In this document: piece after piece, positions 3,247-15,321 of the stretch
Position numbering within the stretch: position 1 is the first letter of the stretch
Layout: every line of letters begins with the position of its first letter
Source: a virus
IMG/VR virus record: IMGVR_UViG_3300035661_000212
Span: 1-33,367 of that record
Length of the DNA stretch: 33,367 bases
Reading direction: 5' to 3' (one strand)
Notes under the pieces: model-generated
Told to the model about the DNA's origin: nothing
The model's database searches: none
What the model saw: only the letters and a program-made list of their open reading frames with translations
Position numbers and translations under genes: made by a program

Positions 3247-3278
3247 GAACCACAATCTTTTTTCACAAGTGATCCCAG

Positions 3279-3305
3279 AGGTGATCTGCTTCATTCAGAT
3301 CACCT
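3279..3305 (+). terminator. Perfect 10-bp hairpin in an intergenic gap
   Basis: AGGTGATCTG, a 7-base loop CTTCATT, then CAGATCACCT. The stem is perfect, but the sequence after it (TGTAACTAAAA) has no T tract, so it is a weak intrinsic terminator at best. It might be an RNA processing or protein-binding site. Its left arm contains the 13-bp word CAGAGGTGATCTG (3276-3288), which recurs at 4025-4037 and, inverted, at 7318-7330. Confidence 0.5.
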
Positions 3306-4024: not shown

Positions 4025-4037
4025 CAGAGGTGATCTG
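4025..4037 (+). repeat. 13-bp word CAGAGGTGATCTG, copy 2
   Basis: The same 13 bases occur at 3276-3288 on this strand and at 7318-7330 on the opposite strand. Here the AGAGGTG part lies just upstream of the GTG at 4039 and could serve as its ribosome site. Confidence 0.6.
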
Positions 4038-4038
4038 A

Positions 4039-5106
4039 GTGACACATAAAATGTTGAAGAAATCAAAGCCATATGCCCCTATACCTGGTGATCCACGATC
4101 AATAGCTCGCTGTAAAAAGGCGTTAAGCTTTTGTCTAAAGTACCTTAAAGAATCAGAGCCAAGACAGGTTCATCGTAACACTTTAGATCTGTATTTTGGA
4201 GCTCATTCAAAAAATCTTAGCGATTGGCTGAGACGCAGACTGCTACTCAAGTTCAGTCATTATGAAGTTGGTGTTGAATGTAAAAGCTATCTGCTTAATA
4301 CTGAACGCCTGTCTGACGTAGTTGACTACATCAAGTCAGTTGGTAAAAGAAACAGAAGTGCAGTCTCTATTGTTGATTACAAGTTGCACGACTTTGTTGA
4401 TTTCGATGAAGAGTTAGTTTTGTACAAACCTGAGCTTGTCGCCGGCGTATTTCAATATAAAGAAGTTGACAATCGCTTTTATCACCCGCTGATATTTCTG
4501 TCAAAATCAGTCAAATCAAAGTTCTGGTCAAGTGTTGGTTATAACTTCAACTATGACGTTTCGACCTGTGCTCCTACTCTACTAGTTCAACTTGCCATTC
4601 GACATGGATTTAAAAAAGCTGAACCAATACTCGACTTCATCGAAAATAAACACGTCTATCGAGAACTTGTTTCTTCAATCACTGGGTTCGATGAAAAGCA
4701 AAGCAAAGATTTAATCAACGCGTGGTTCAATGGAGCTCGACTTTCAAGTCATCATCAATGTGCTACATTTAGACATCTACAATATGATGAAGAAAAAATG
4801 AGTGAGCTAAAGACAAATGAAAAAATAGTCGACTTAAGAAAGTCAATCGCGTTGATGTGGCAGCAAATAAAAAAAGCGAGACATATAAGTTGTCGTCTCA
4901 ATGGAAAGATAAAGATGAACTTGTACTTCAATGAAGAAAGAAAAGTGATGGATGAAATATGTAATGAAGTTGCTCAACAAGAAATATTATTTTTCAGAGA
5001 ACATGATGGATTTAGGACAAATGAAAAAGCGGATAAAAAGAAGATTGAAGAAAAAGTGTTGATGAAAACAGGTTACAAGATAAAGTTAAAAGAGGAAGAA
5101 ATATAA
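4039..5106 (+). CDS. Possible divergent nucleic-acid polymerase (palm-like motifs)
   Basis: 355 residues from a GTG at 4039 (AGAGGTG upstream); an ATG at 4051 is the alternative start. Three features recall palm-domain polymerases of the family A / single-subunit RNA polymerase group. (1) YDVSTCAPTLLVQLA, with D173, in motif A position. (2) About 50 residues on, KDLINAWFNGAR (K223, N231, G232, R234), like a motif B helix. (3) A helix RKVMDEICNEVAQQ leading into FFREHDGF (H322, D323), like the HD of motif C. Their order and spacing are right, but the protein is short, with only about 170 residues before motif A, and it lacks any visible exonuclease. I infer a replication or transcription enzyme of an undescribed or poorly known family. 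No other replication gene is recognisable. The motif match is by eye and could be chance. Confidence 0.45.
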   Translation: MTHKMLKKSKPYAPIPGDPRSIARCKKALSFCLKYLKESEPRQVHRNTLDLYFGAHSKNLSDWLRRRLLLKFSHYEVGVECKSYLLNTERLSDVVDYIKSVGKRNRSAVSIVDYKLHDFVDFDEELVLYKPELVAGVFQYKEVDNRFYHPLIFLSKSVKSKFWSSVGYNFNYDVSTCAPTLLVQLAIRHGFKKAEPILDFIENKHVYRELVSSITGFDEKQSKDLINAWFNGARLSSHHQCATFRHLQYDEEKMSELKTNEKIVDLRKSIALMWQQIKKARHISCRLNGKIKMNLYFNEERKVMDEICNEVAQQEILFFREHDGFRTNEKADKKKIEEKVLMKTGYKIKLKEEEI

Positions 5107-5237: not shown

Positions 5238-5260
5238 CACTTATAAAACGTTTTATAAGA
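5238..5260. promoter_or_regulatory. Palindromic element, copy B
   Basis: The core CTTATAAAACGTTTTATAAG (5240-5259) is a perfect 20-bp palindrome. Over 23 positions it matches copy A (2721-2743) at 19. Located in the gap upstream of the 5324/5574 gene pair. Interpreted as an operator for a dimeric DNA-binding protein. Confidence 0.6.
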
Positions 5261-5323: not shown

Positions 5324-5544
5324 ATGAACATGTCATTGTCATCAAGGTGATTAGTGTTACGCACGACACAGTCGAATATTGATATGCCAATCAGAAAAGA
5401 AATAACTATGGGTTCTTCTTTTTTTATTACTTTGACATAAAACCTGGTCAACCTGTTTTTGAATCAATGAAAAGCTATCAAATAAATCGATTTCGACAAG
5501 GTAGTCAATGGGTATTTGACTGGACTACCGTTAAGCAAATCTAA
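5324..5544 (+). pseudogene. Decayed copy related to the 5574 gene
   Basis: A strong GGAGG (5310-5314) precedes ATG at 5324, but that frame stops after eight codons (TGA 5348-5350). In the neighbouring frame the sequence reads as sensible protein (HVIVIKVISVTHDTVEY), meets an in-frame TGA at 5380-5382, then continues (GFFFFIYFDIKPGQPVF ... RFRQGSQWVFDW) to TAA 5542-5544. The last part aligns with the intact neighbour's RIKQGSRWDWDEST: shared are Y, R, QGS, W, D and T at matching places. One missing base after the ATG (AA for AAA) would restore the frame. So this looks like a paralogue broken by one frameshift and one nonsense mutation; sequencing error cannot be excluded for the former. Confidence 0.6.
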
Positions 5545-5573
5545 ACTTTTTAACCCAATAGAGGTAACCTTTT

Positions 5574-6183: not shown

Positions 6184-6381
6184 ATGAAACAACGTCAAGA
6201 AGGACTTTGGTATTTGACTGAAGAGACCCGCGAACGGATGTCTAAGTCAAAGATGGGTAAAGCCACGCCATGGAATGAAGGCAAACAAGAAAGAATCCCT
6301 TGCCCTCATTGTGGTCGACTCATTGGCTATAAGCAACTTAAAAAACATGAGAGTTATTGTGATGCCAAAGTTTCGGAGTAA
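6184..6381 (+). CDS. NUMOD3-like / zinc-finger peptide linked to an endonuclease
   Basis: 65 residues. Residues 11-34 (LTEETRERMSKSKMGKATPW and on to NEGK) match the NUMOD3 DNA-binding module pattern of homing endonucleases. Residues 40-59 form a C-x2-C-x11-H-x3-C zinc finger (CPHCG...HESYC), a type also common in phage homing nucleases. There is no catalytic domain in this frame; it ends 20 bases inside the following endonuclease gene, which is in the +1 frame. The two may be separate coupled proteins, or halves of one enzyme joined by frameshifting or split by a mutation. It probably supplies sequence-specific DNA binding. Module matches are by eye. Confidence 0.65.
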   Translation: MKQRQEGLWYLTEETRERMSKSKMGKATPWNEGKQERIPCPHCGRLIGYKQLKKHESYCDAKVSE

Positions 6382-6736
6382 GTTTGAAGCAACCTTTGCC
6401 AGGCAACTTAAAGATGCCAGCATAAAATATGACTATGAGCCAGAGAAGATCTTGTATTCGATCGTTCATAACTATACACCTGACTTTAAACTTGCTGAAA
6501 ATGTCTTTATTGAAACAAAAGGCCTTTGGACTGGAAATGACAGGAACAAGCACAAGCACGTTCGTGATCAGAACCCCGACATAAAGATTTTACTTGTTTT
6601 TCAAGATCCTTTTAGATCACTTTCTAAAAAAAGCAAGACCACCTATGTAAGTTATTGTGACAAGCTTGGGTGGGCTTGGTCAAGTTCTAACATGGCCGAC
6701 GTAAAAGCGGCCTTAGACAAACTTTTAAATACCTAA
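6362..6736 (+). CDS. T7 endonuclease I-type Holliday junction resolvase / nuclease
   Basis: 124 residues from ATG 6362; an ATG at 6275 lies within the upstream gene and gives an N-terminus unlike the family. The family pattern is clear: FRSKFE with E9, YTPDF with D41, and FIETKG with E51 and K53. These correspond to the four catalytic residues of T7 gp3 (E20, D55, E65, K67). GNDRNKHKHVRDQNPDIKI and the SKTTYVSYCDKLG segment also match. T7 gp3 is about 149 residues, so this is a compact full-length core. It should cut branched DNA, resolving replication and recombination intermediates before packaging. Because a NUMOD/zinc-finger peptide overlaps its start, a homing-endonuclease role (as for the related cyanophage enzyme F-CphI) is a serious alternative. 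Confidence 0.88.
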   Translation: MPKFRSKFEATFARQLKDASIKYDYEPEKILYSIVHNYTPDFKLAENVFIETKGLWTGNDRNKHKHVRDQNPDIKILLVFQDPFRSLSKKSKTTYVSYCDKLGWAWSSSNMADVKAALDKLLNT

Positions 6737-6939: not shown

Positions 6940-7185
6940 ATGCCAACGTCACTATGGACAGTACTCAGCTACATAGCTGACATCTACAGAAGACAAGATA
7001 ATGAATCAGAGTTTGACTTCCACAACCTATTCACCGTCGCCAACAAATACTGTGCAACCGTAGAGCTTGACGAAGAAAAAGACCTTACTGAACTCTTTTT
7101 AATCTTTATGGAAATCAGCAAAATCGGCCTAGGACTTGCTGAATCAACTGACAATATCTTAAAACAAGAAGAATCTTCTGGATAA
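6940..7185 (+). CDS. Small acidic early protein
   Basis: 81 residues; ATG at 6940 with AAGGA upstream. Strongly acidic (many D/E), mostly helical, with FHNLFTVANKYCATVELDEEK and LTELFLIFMEISKIGLGLAE. No family recognised. Acidic small phage proteins often bind host enzymes or mimic DNA, but nothing here shows that specifically. The palindromic element copy C starts at its stop codon. Confidence 0.65.
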   Translation: MPTSLWTVLSYIADIYRRQDNESEFDFHNLFTVANKYCATVELDEEKDLTELFLIFMEISKIGLGLAESTDNILKQEESSG

Positions 7186-7228
7186 CTTACAAAAAGTATT
7201 GTAAGTTAGGTAAACTTTATGATATGAT
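7184..7228. promoter_or_regulatory. Palindromic element, copy C, with promoter
   Basis: AACTTACAA (7184-7192), six bases, TTGTAAGTT (7199-7207): perfect 9-bp arms. TTGTAA (7199-7204) is an acceptable -35, with TATGAT at 7223-7228 as -10 at an 18-base spacing, so the operator would overlap the promoter. AGGTAAAC (7208-7215) follows, as it does, six bases further on, in copy A on the minus strand. It drives the 7249 gene and probably the block after it. Confidence 0.6.
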
Positions 7229-7248: not shown

Positions 7249-7485
7249 ATGTTGAAGATTTTGGTTTTAGTTCTATTAAGTCAGAGTGTATTTGCAGAAG
7301 TGTTGTACGTGACACCTCAGATCACCTCTGGGACACTTAGTTACAGGGTTAGTAATAACCCACAACCTTATTCAATAACACCCCCAAAGGTTCCTGATCT
7401 TAAGCCAATCTGTGCTAACTTCGGAAAAGATTTTGCAACAACTCAATGGTTGAAGTGCGCTGAAGCCGGTCAACTTAGGAAATAA
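7249..7485 (+). CDS. Small secreted protein with signal peptide
   Basis: 78 residues from ATG 7249, chosen over a TTG at 7237 because GGAGG (7239-7243) sits five bases before the ATG. Residues 1-16 (MLKILVLVLLSQSVFA) are a typical signal peptide with a likely cleavage after SVFA. The mature part of about 62 residues has beta-type N-terminal sequence, a proline-rich middle (NPQPYSITPPKVPDLKP) and two cysteines that could pair in the periplasm. No lipobox, so it is not an obvious Rz1-type outer spanin. An exported early phage protein might block superinfection or modify the envelope; this is inference. The inverted third copy of the word CAGAGGTGATCTG lies in its coding sequence (7318-7330). 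Confidence 0.7.
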   Translation: MLKILVLVLLSQSVFAEVLYVTPQITSGTLSYRVSNNPQPYSITPPKVPDLKPICANFGKDFATTQWLKCAEAGQLRK

Positions 7486-9494: not shown

Positions 9495-9553
9495 TATAAA
9501 TAGGGAAGTAGTACTTATAAAACAAAGAGAAACTTACAATACTTTTTATAAGT
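9495..9553. promoter_or_regulatory. Terminase-side control region: TATAAATA box and palindromic element, copy D
   Basis: TATAAATA at 9495-9502. AACTTACAA...TTATAAGT at 9531-9553 matches the reverse complement of copy C (7184-7206) at 22 of 23 positions. A further arm ACTTATAAAA at 9513-9522 pairs with TTTTATAAGT at 9544-9553, so the region carries one and a half copies. It separates the divergent minus-strand gene and the terminase operon. Confidence 0.6.
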
Positions 9554-14605: not shown

Positions 14606-14809
14606 ATGGCGAAACGAGTAGTTAAAACTACAAAAGAAATAGAGCCAGCGGAAACTGGCTCTATTCTTATCACCAGCAAGTTTTTAGTAACTGAAGACAT
14701 TATTGGTCAGATTAATAATAAACTGTTTGATTATAAAGCTGGACAAGTCATTGACTTAACAGCTGATGAAGCATTTATCCTTCGCTACAAAATCAAGGAG
14801 AAAGTTTAA
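14606..14809 (+). CDS. Small protein after the capsid gene
   Basis: 67 residues; ATG two bases after the capsid stop and no ribosome site of its own, so translation must be coupled. Basic N-terminus then a small beta-type domain (GQVIDLTADEAFILRYKI). Small proteins here are often head decoration or structural-completion proteins, but I recognise no family. A perfect 11-bp hairpin lies inside codons about 11-20, constraining its N-terminal sequence. Confidence 0.6.
   Translation: MAKRVVKTTKEIEPAETGSILITSKFLVTEDIIGQINNKLFDYKAGQVIDLTADEAFILRYKIKEKV
14638..14665 (+). terminator. Perfect 11-bp hairpin after the capsid gene, inside the next gene
   Basis: AATAGAGCCAG, loop CGGAAA, CTGGCTCTATT, followed by CTTATC. 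Strong GC core and A/U flanks as in an intrinsic terminator, but only a short U-rich tail. Placed so close after the major capsid gene it could act as an attenuator or protect the 3' end of the capsid mRNA. Confidence 0.6.
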
Positions 14810-15321
14810 TGACAATAGACGCTACAGTCGGAACTTCGACAGCAAATAGCTATGTCACCTTAGTTGAAGCAGACGCATATCTTGCAACTCGAGTCGGTGC
14901 AGCCACATGGGTTGATTTAGAGCAAGATCAGAAAGAAGCATATCTTCTGACGGCAAATCGTCAACTTGAAATCGCGTTATGGAATGGTCTTAAGCAATAC
15001 CCAAGCGTTCAAGCTTTAAGTTTCCCAAGAACTGGGCTTGTTGACTATGATTCGCAGGTAATAACTGGTATTCCGAAAAAGTTGAAGGAAGCTCAACTTG
15101 AACTTGCATATTGGTTACTGACTGAAGGTGACAGATATATGTCTGACACTGACCTTCAGCAAATCAGCAAGTTAAGTATTGGGCCATTAAACTTAGAAGT
15201 TAGTAAAAGTGCCGCGATCTTTCCACTACTTGTCGATCAGTTAATGCAGGCGATTGGACCTGGAGTTCTGATGAAGTCACCAGGTGCAAATACCGCTTCA
15301 GCAGTGAGCTTTGTTAGATGA
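14809..15321 (+). CDS. Head-tail connector (DnaT-like/adaptor family)
   Basis: 170 residues. The pattern NSYVTLVEADAYLATR ... W ... AYLLTANRQLEIALWNGL ... LSFPRTGLVDYD ... IPKKLKEAQLELAYWLL is that of phage adaptor proteins annotated as DnaT-like or gp6-type connectors. They sit under the portal and form the first neck ring. Length and position right after capsid and decoration genes fit. Starts by overlap with the preceding stop; overlaps the next ATG by four bases. Confidence 0.8.
   Translation: MTIDATVGTSTANSYVTLVEADAYLATRVGAATWVDLEQDQKEAYLLTANRQLEIALWNGLKQYPSVQALSFPRTGLVDYDSQVITGIPKKLKEAQLELAYWLLTEGDRYMSDTDLQQISKLSIGPLNLEVSKSAAIFPLLVDQLMQAIGPGVLMKSPGANTASAVSFVR

Follow-up and report, generated by a model that had tools for sequence, protein, structure and literature searches.

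A compact phage polymerase of the TV-Pol group and its predicted role in starting DNA synthesis

P0001, a gene of a small tailed phage, encodes a protein that sequence comparison places in TV-Pol, a known but barely studied group of polymerases, and it is almost certain that this protein has the DNA polymerase I fold and belongs to that family. The gene lies in a stretch of 33,367 nucleotides of phage DNA, which was analysed as a whole and is called the window. TV-Pol has been described as a minimal family A polymerase of transposons and viruses, with the Microcystis phage Ma-LMM01, Thauera and the Sputnik virophage (V13) among its listed sources and with genes for a D5 helicase or a resolvase/integrase as neighbours, and primase-polymerase activity has been predicted for it (Iyer, Abhiman and Aravind 2008; PMC2579912). 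We propose, with a probability of roughly 70%, that P0001 is a TV-Pol pared down to the palm and fingers with a short N-terminal part, and that it would start phage DNA synthesis as a primase-polymerase with help from the host.

A first-pass annotation of the window had suggested that polymerase-like motifs in this short protein might mark a new compact replicase, primase-polymerase or transcriptase. The kind of enzyme is not new, being TV-Pol (PMC2579912), whereas the compact phage branch that contains P0001 is apparently undescribed; among the titles and abstract openings of the open-licence TV-Pol literature, none describes a compact TV-Pol of small tailed phages.

The gene and the family to which it belongs

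The open reading frame of 355 residues that had been annotated at this place is confirmed, as are its three motif strings, at residues 172-186, 223-234 and 318-325, and the numbering of D173 and D323 (Table 1). Searches with the single sequence found no Pfam family over the 355 residues, PF00476 (DNA_pol_A) included; the best matches in PHROG and NCBIfam (E 0.03 and 0.036) were taken as chance, those in the PDB were at chance level, and tblastn against 50,697 phage records returned nothing up to E 1. The near-identical contig L001, which matches the window at 98.6% over 9.5 kb, encodes the same protein with 5 nucleotide changes, all of them silent. The large gene that follows P0001 likewise has no Pfam match, and its best PHROG match is at E 0.052.

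Table 1. Positions in the window of the polymerase gene, its motifs and the next large gene
Feature	Position	Strand	Description
P0001, compact TV-Pol-type family A polymerase	4039..5106	+	355 aa; GTG start, GAGGTGA 5 nt upstream
R146, hairpin arginine	4474..4476	+	Corresponds to R668 of E. coli DNA polymerase I, within GRLSS-PNLQNIP; kept in all 20 rows of A3 and all 13 covering rows of A7
Motif A YDVSTCAPTLLVQLA, residues 172-186	4552..4596	+	D173 = D705 (putative metal-binding Asp), A178 = E710 (steric gate); model strand 170-174
Motif B KDLINAWFNGAR, residues 223-234	4705..4740	+	K223 = K758, N227 = F762, N231 = Y766
E300, invariant	4936..4938	+	Matches the Glu in the QGxE motif that other TV-Pols carry; the Gln of that motif falls on Q849 of DNA polymerase I
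Motif C FFREHDGF, residues 318-325	4990..5013	+	HD = H881-D882 via homologue L034, at a low-confidence alignment end; model strand hairpin 318-321/324-327
TGY, residues 344-346, C-terminal motif	5068..5076	+	T and G invariant in the 14 rows of A7, Y kept in 13
Downstream large gene, 201 aa	5574..6179	+	Next after P0001; candidate polymerase partner by position only

The family was reached through a plasmid search, in which residues 170-350 of P0001, holding all three motifs, matched a 501-aa protein of the Polaromonas plasmid pH8NP1 at E 5e-5. From the Polaromonas protein, tblastn led to a second Polaromonas plasmid (7e-58), to Microcystis phages including Ma-LMM01 gp030 (about 1e-4) and to Vibrio phage GR11A (2e-3); an E. 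coli plasmid matched at E 0.5 only and is backed by a reverse match of 1e-4 and by the motifs. Later search steps added Vibrio phage GR7B and jumbo phages of Erwinia, Dickeya and Yersinia. A DNA pattern for QGxE and HDG(F/V) gave 91 stretches in genome contigs, from which the profile picked 15 ORFs at E <1e-3, and, shortened by its last residue, the pattern picked out 24 stretches in viral contigs, four of them with a family member: L115 (identical to L056), the near-duplicates L126 and L119, and L113. The pattern NYD..CH..I(L) gave 11 stretches in viral contigs and no member, and related-locus searches started from the E. coli plasmid protein or from the two-plasmid alignment were empty. The family is sporadic, with members in 7 of 247 genomes in L054's order and in 2 of 250 in that of L028 (the centre genome counted each time), and none of 35 TerL relatives at 33-40% identity had a TV-Pol in the stretch examined. 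Matches in Citrobacter and Enterobacter plasmids were dropped as pilus-type ATPases, judged by annotation and gene neighbours. A Clp_N match in the Polaromonas protein (E 0.00083, under the cut-off), seen in one member of 20 and located after motif B, was also rejected.

The 20-row alignment of the family (A3) leaves out the Microcystis duplicates L009 and L010, the partial L103 and the genomes from the two order surveys; L115 and L119 were left out as duplicates, and the alignments used for folding omit L055, which has an unknown residue, and loci taken from annotated regions. A tree of 24 core sequences, built before the compact relatives were known, put P0001 on a long branch with weak support (0.62) and was not used.

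The family takes in Ma-LMM01 gp030, which adjoins transposase genes, and the Thauera protein L063. From its transposase neighbours, gp030 would be the Ma-LMM01 protein meant by Iyer et al.; since these authors list both sources, the family is of a kind already known. Their account gives TV-Pol a conserved hairpin arginine, an RRM-like palm with two aspartates, an RxxxK motif in the fingers and a thumb of two antiparallel helices, with neither a fused nuclease domain nor linked nuclease genes, and it also reports an N-terminal helical domain found with a resolvase, integrase or transposase (PMC2579912). P0001 resembles this description in being minimal and without an exonuclease, in its invariant hairpin Arg, two Asp and fingers Lys, and in its phage or mobile-element setting; within its 355 residues Pfam recognises no fused nuclease domain. 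It departs from the description in that a gene for endonuclease I is linked to it, 1.3 kb downstream in the window. RxxxK, read as Arg at K-4, is absent from P0001 and from the Ma-LMM01 row and is found in 1 of 20 rows of A3 and 1 of 14 of the compact-branch alignment (A7), although the published alignment may place the motif elsewhere. P0001 is also shorter than the 23 TV-Pols outside the compact branch (465-657 aa, with unverified starts), and in the 24-member set that predates the compact relatives its stretch before the Arg ends at 146, against 216-407 in other members. Other TV-Pols have CH after the motif A Asp, where P0001 has CAP, and P0001 has no Tyr at K+8. It lies upstream of the packaging genes of a small tailed phage, and the D5 helicase or recombinase context of TV-Pol, which concerns gene neighbourhood and not the fold itself, was not found there.

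Recombinase, integrase or rve genes accompany several relatives of P0001, and the two small Polaromonas plasmids carry, beside the family protein, a separate gene annotated as a recombinase family protein. In the Erwinia and Yersinia jumbo phages and in Vibrio phage GR11A the TV-Pol is annotated as a hypothetical protein (L199 5191-6768, L200 3155-4750 and L006 3951-5804), and the two genes upstream of it in the Erwinia and Yersinia phages seem similar in size and order. The E. coli plasmid pF16EC0470-1 (L008 4380-5774) and L158 (G421) have closely related TV-Pol genes, that of L008 having a site-specific integrase and an AlpA-type regulator close by, an arrangement like that of an integrated element or a phage satellite.

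Evidence for a family A fold and conserved residues

Profiles built from the homologues set the motifs beyond chance. A 19-row profile that includes Ma-LMM01 gp030 but not P0001 recovered P0001 alone among the 171 ORFs of the window (E 5.9e-18 at a search space of 100,000), and a 13-row profile of closer phage homologues, also without P0001, recovered it at E 4.8e-88; the alignments behind both had originally been made with P0001 included, so that the two results are not wholly independent. In hhalign comparisons the TV-Pols, P0001 included, aligned with 27 classical family A (DNA polymerase I/T7) sequences at E 1.4e-4 to 5.5e-5, where the best of 20 column-shuffled nulls reached 0.17, and at E 7.2e-5 when P0001 was left out; the probabilities of these comparisons were 52-66. 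R668, D705, K758, Q849, H881 and D882 stand in line in this register, motif C being reached only via a forced path; along the forced full-length path, which is of low confidence, Q420, H443 and D444 of homologue L034 fall on Q849, H881 and D882. When a 20-row profile was searched against the PDB, the best sensible match was to residues 475-566 of T7 DNA polymerase (E 0.16); the motif A helix and the AKTFIYGFLYGA segment were in register, and two unrelated chains ranked higher.

The predicted structure points the same way, and the reading of the motifs as palm motifs A, B and C of family A is supported there. An AlphaFold2 model of P0001, made with 15 homologues, is confident over fingers and palm, with ten-residue confidence means of 83-96 from residue 171 to 355, except for 65-75 at 231-250 and 281-300. 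The N-terminal half is of low confidence, with residues 35-157 under 50; here helices that may form the thumb are predicted before the palm, mostly at pLDDT <50, and hairpin strands 139-141 and 146-148 lie around R146, also in a low-confidence region. Foldseek alone gave no match to the model at E <0.001 (best 0.11). When the Foldseek candidates were re-checked with VIA-align, the best reached Z 11.2 at 4.5 A over 214 residues, and 50 of the 50 structural matches listed were family A DNA polymerases, at 6-12% identity. No RNA polymerase is among these 50 listed matches, which excludes nothing. The model of homologue L034 (pLDDT 83, pTM 0.83) matched the Klenow fragment by Foldseek at E 4.3e-8 and reached Z 16.5, all 50 of its listed matches again being family A. 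Matches in a viral library include uncharacterised Dickeya jumbo-phage proteins and virophage replication proteins.

R146, D173, K223, E300, H322, D323 and G324 are present in all 20 rows of A3 and in every covering row of A7 (13 or 14 of 14); the two aspartates, whose conservation the first-pass annotation had proposed to check, are thus among the invariant residues. P0001 shares palm, fingers and motifs A, B and C with T7 DNA polymerase and bacterial DNA polymerase I, and a PNLQNIP-like segment occurs in the family, but it has no exonuclease domain and carries Ala in place of the steric-gate Glu. At A178, N231 and F297-N298 it is changed where other TV-Pols are conserved. E710 and Y766 of E. 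coli DNA polymerase I, to which A178 and N231 correspond, govern sugar choice and fidelity, and altered sugar choice is predicted for the compact branch from these sequence positions.

The compact branch and the genomes that carry it

Scans of viral contigs for HDGF and TGY separated by 18 residues (32 stretches) and for NYD(I/V/M)...CAP..L (5 stretches) yielded closer relatives of P0001, up to phmmer E 2.6e-52 with the L001 contig set aside. Aligned, they make up the 14 rows of A7, of which L230 and L238 represent a longer form. Left out of it were L240 (the same contig as L001), L241, L247, L248, L246 and L257 as duplicates, together with L250 (split), L231 (partial), L244 and L245 (weak) and L260 (of another branch). 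The branch carries the signature YDIxxCAPTLL...HDGF...TGY, and its full-length members have 352-413 aa, except for L256 with 481. Most rows of A7 show R..H.LQN, YDI..(C/A)AP(T/S), a Lys with Gly nine residues on, Y...E, HDG(F/W) and TGY, the LQN of the R..H.LQN segment having been lost in P0001. The steric-gate position lies five residues beyond the motif A Asp; of the 13 covering rows, 11 have Ala there and all have Pro next. In other TV-Pols the same position holds His (15 of 20), Gln or Asn. Tyr at Lys +8 is found in 15 of 20 rows of A3 and in none of the 14 of A7.

With P0001 removed from both alignments, A7 matched the other TV-Pols at hhalign E 3.5e-27 (probability 99.7). The compact branch alone gave no match to DNA polymerase I by profile (E 0.096), so that it connects to that enzyme by way of the other TV-Pols. 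None of the 14 rows of A7 matched PHROG at 0.001, and two branch members found nothing at E 0.01 among the 50,697 phage records. A longer related form of about 500 aa with the same CAP signature (L230, L238, L241, L247 and L248) lies on contigs with a DnaB-type helicase.

The window is that of a tailed phage, with terminase, scaffold, capsid, tape measure and tail genes and a weak portal match; the terminase is identified by a Pfam match and by tblastn matches in 974 phage records, all at <60% identity. L001 spans the two ends of the window, with an ORF of 522 aa across them, and joining the ends over 6 shared bases leaves 526 codons open; joins elsewhere that keep this frame are open as well. 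Flanking synteny and the open reading frame across the join make the window a probable near-complete genome, about 33.4 kb long. Across the join itself, blastn of 721 against 703 nt gave no match, the roughly 700 nt between being unalike.

The absence of a helicase, primase or normal polymerase from the window, as first annotated, holds at the sensitivity of Pfam for its 42 ORFs and seven further ORFs. DnaB_C, DNA_pol_A, D5_N and IstB/DnaC have no match in the record, and no D5 helicase, resolvase, recombinase or integrase was found by Pfam. The sole replication-like name is DnaT_2, putative DnaT-like ssDNA binding, at 14809-15321 (E 7.1e-21); this gene sits between capsid and tail genes, the usual place of a head-completion protein, and from that position the name may mislead.

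With 12 further viral records the window makes up a set of 13 for the branch, of 10.5 to 39.6 kb, several of which may be fragments. Each has one compact gene by profile search, that of L250 being split by stops. DnaB_C is found in none of the 13, its five matches among 18 records searched being the five of the longer form, and DNA_pol_A, D5_N and IstB/DnaC are likewise found in none; the Pfam search for other helicase and primase families covers the window, and the helicase searches leave L242 and L257 aside. ResIII helicase matches in two of the 13, both under the family cut-off and one in the reading frame of the terminase-like gene of L236, were rejected. A terminase of the window's cluster is visible in eight loci, in seven of which it follows the polymerase gene on the same strand, 1.9 to 5.0 kb downstream; in L262 the terminase is on the opposite strand, 1.8 kb away. 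No widely conserved neighbour in the branch loci suggests a partner like MP, the protein with which the TV-Pol CCPol works.

Four similar 22-nt palindromes, ACTTAYAA...TTRTAAGT, lie between gene blocks of the window, at 2722-2743, 5239-5260, 7185-7206 and 9532-9553, and occur in L001 as well. The pattern, which was derived from these very copies, has 8 matches on both strands against 0.03 expected, and the palindromes are likely phage operators or other regulatory sites.

Candidate functions and nearby sequence elements

Of the three functions offered in the first-pass annotation, that of a primase-polymerase suits the family best; a replicase is possible, and little positive evidence favours a transcriptase. 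For catalysis, priming, sugar choice and host dependence we infer the following steps. D173 and D323 would hold two metal ions, K223 would bind the incoming nucleotide and R146 would contact the template strand, while the small Ala178 at the steric gate may let the enzyme use or tolerate ribonucleotides in making the first primer. P0001 would thus prime phage DNA and then either elongate or pass the product to the host helicase and replicase. As no phage helicase or primase was recognised, the host DnaB machinery or strand displacement by P0001 would have to open the duplex.

Priming itself is somewhat favoured, by analogy with one tested relative, CCPol, which needs MP. CCPol, a protein of SCC elements that is counted as a TV-Pol, is reported to prime de novo with this partner (PMC7581432), and P0001 resembles the CCPol-MP and PolA-SSB primases (PMC7581432, PMC10061031) in being a small family A polymerase of a mobile element. 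CCPol differs in working with MP and the Cch2 helicase, of which no equivalent was identified near P0001. The proteins divPolA1 and divPolA2 are likewise divergent phage family A polymerases without a working exonuclease, which P0001 resembles in this, and the phages encoding them are reported to encode a regular DNA polymerase as well (PMC11348598); the TV-Pol profile, searched to E 100, did not report divPolA2 (AUR84708).

The main rival to this proposal, which we consider unlikely, is that P0001 is a non-priming family A-like DNA polymerase for repair, recombination or gap filling, the genome being copied by the host replisome. Many relatives do have the look of accessory genes: a gene annotated RepA is present separately on the two Polaromonas plasmids, and TV-Pol occurs in large phages such as Ma-LMM01 and the Erwinia jumbo phages, jumbo phages being reported to have their own polymerases (PMC7824862). 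The T7-type endonuclease I gene near P0001 would also suit a recombination role, but that gene is found in 1 of the 13 compact records, the window, so that no shared recombination module is seen, and the lack of any DNA_pol_A, DnaB_C or D5_N match across the same 13 records speaks against an accessory part. That P0001 is a decayed polymerase, inactive and retained to bind DNA or to regulate, is very improbable. Decay would account for the changes at A178, N231 and F297-N298, the missing Arg at K-4 and the splitting of L250 by stops; however, both Asp, R146, K223, E300 and H322 persist in every covering row, the odd residues are largely common to the branch (11 of 13 rows have Ala, and none of 14 has Tyr), and the changes relative to L001 are silent only.

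That P0001 might instead be a single-subunit RNA polymerase transcribing the phage genes, with the palindromes at the heads of gene blocks as its promoters, is improbable, if less so than decay. The fold is common to family A and the T7-type RNA polymerases, and the small steric-gate residue and the four similar 22-nt elements between gene blocks agree with such a role. Yet the elements are palindromic and suit a dimeric regulator better than a directional promoter, Pfam finds no known promoter-binding domain in the 355 residues, and the 19-row profile matched T7 DNA polymerase weakly (E 0.25) and did not report T7 RNA polymerase up to E 100.

Within the preferred reading as a host-assisted primase-polymerase, a bolder version is doubtful: that the compact branch is a one-protein primase-replicase of 350-400 residues with its steric gate removed, which would make mixed ribo/deoxy primers and copy the genome by strand displacement. 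If true, it would be the only replication enzyme of helicase-less tailed phages of roughly 33-40 kb. The compact gene assigns a replication gene to phages whose replication would otherwise look empty. The branch also offers short, expressible proteins with which to probe the minimum that lets a family A enzyme start DNA synthesis, and it lets sugar selection be studied with the steric-gate Glu and the O-helix Tyr both gone.

Several smaller elements lie around the gene. The endonuclease I gene of T7 type (PF05367, phrog_945) occupies 6362-6736, and a small ORF at 6184-6381 that overlaps it has weak matches of homing-endonuclease type. An open stretch at 5400-5545, short and with no clear start, resembles at its end the C-terminal part of the 201-aa gene (shared DNA repeat D12) and is perhaps a partial duplicate of that gene. 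The sequence CAGAGGTGATCTG occurs exactly three times, at 3276-3288, 4025-4037 and 7318-7330 (minus strand), and three times in L001 too; its copy at 4025-4037 ends one base before the start codon of P0001 and overlaps the likely ribosome-binding site.
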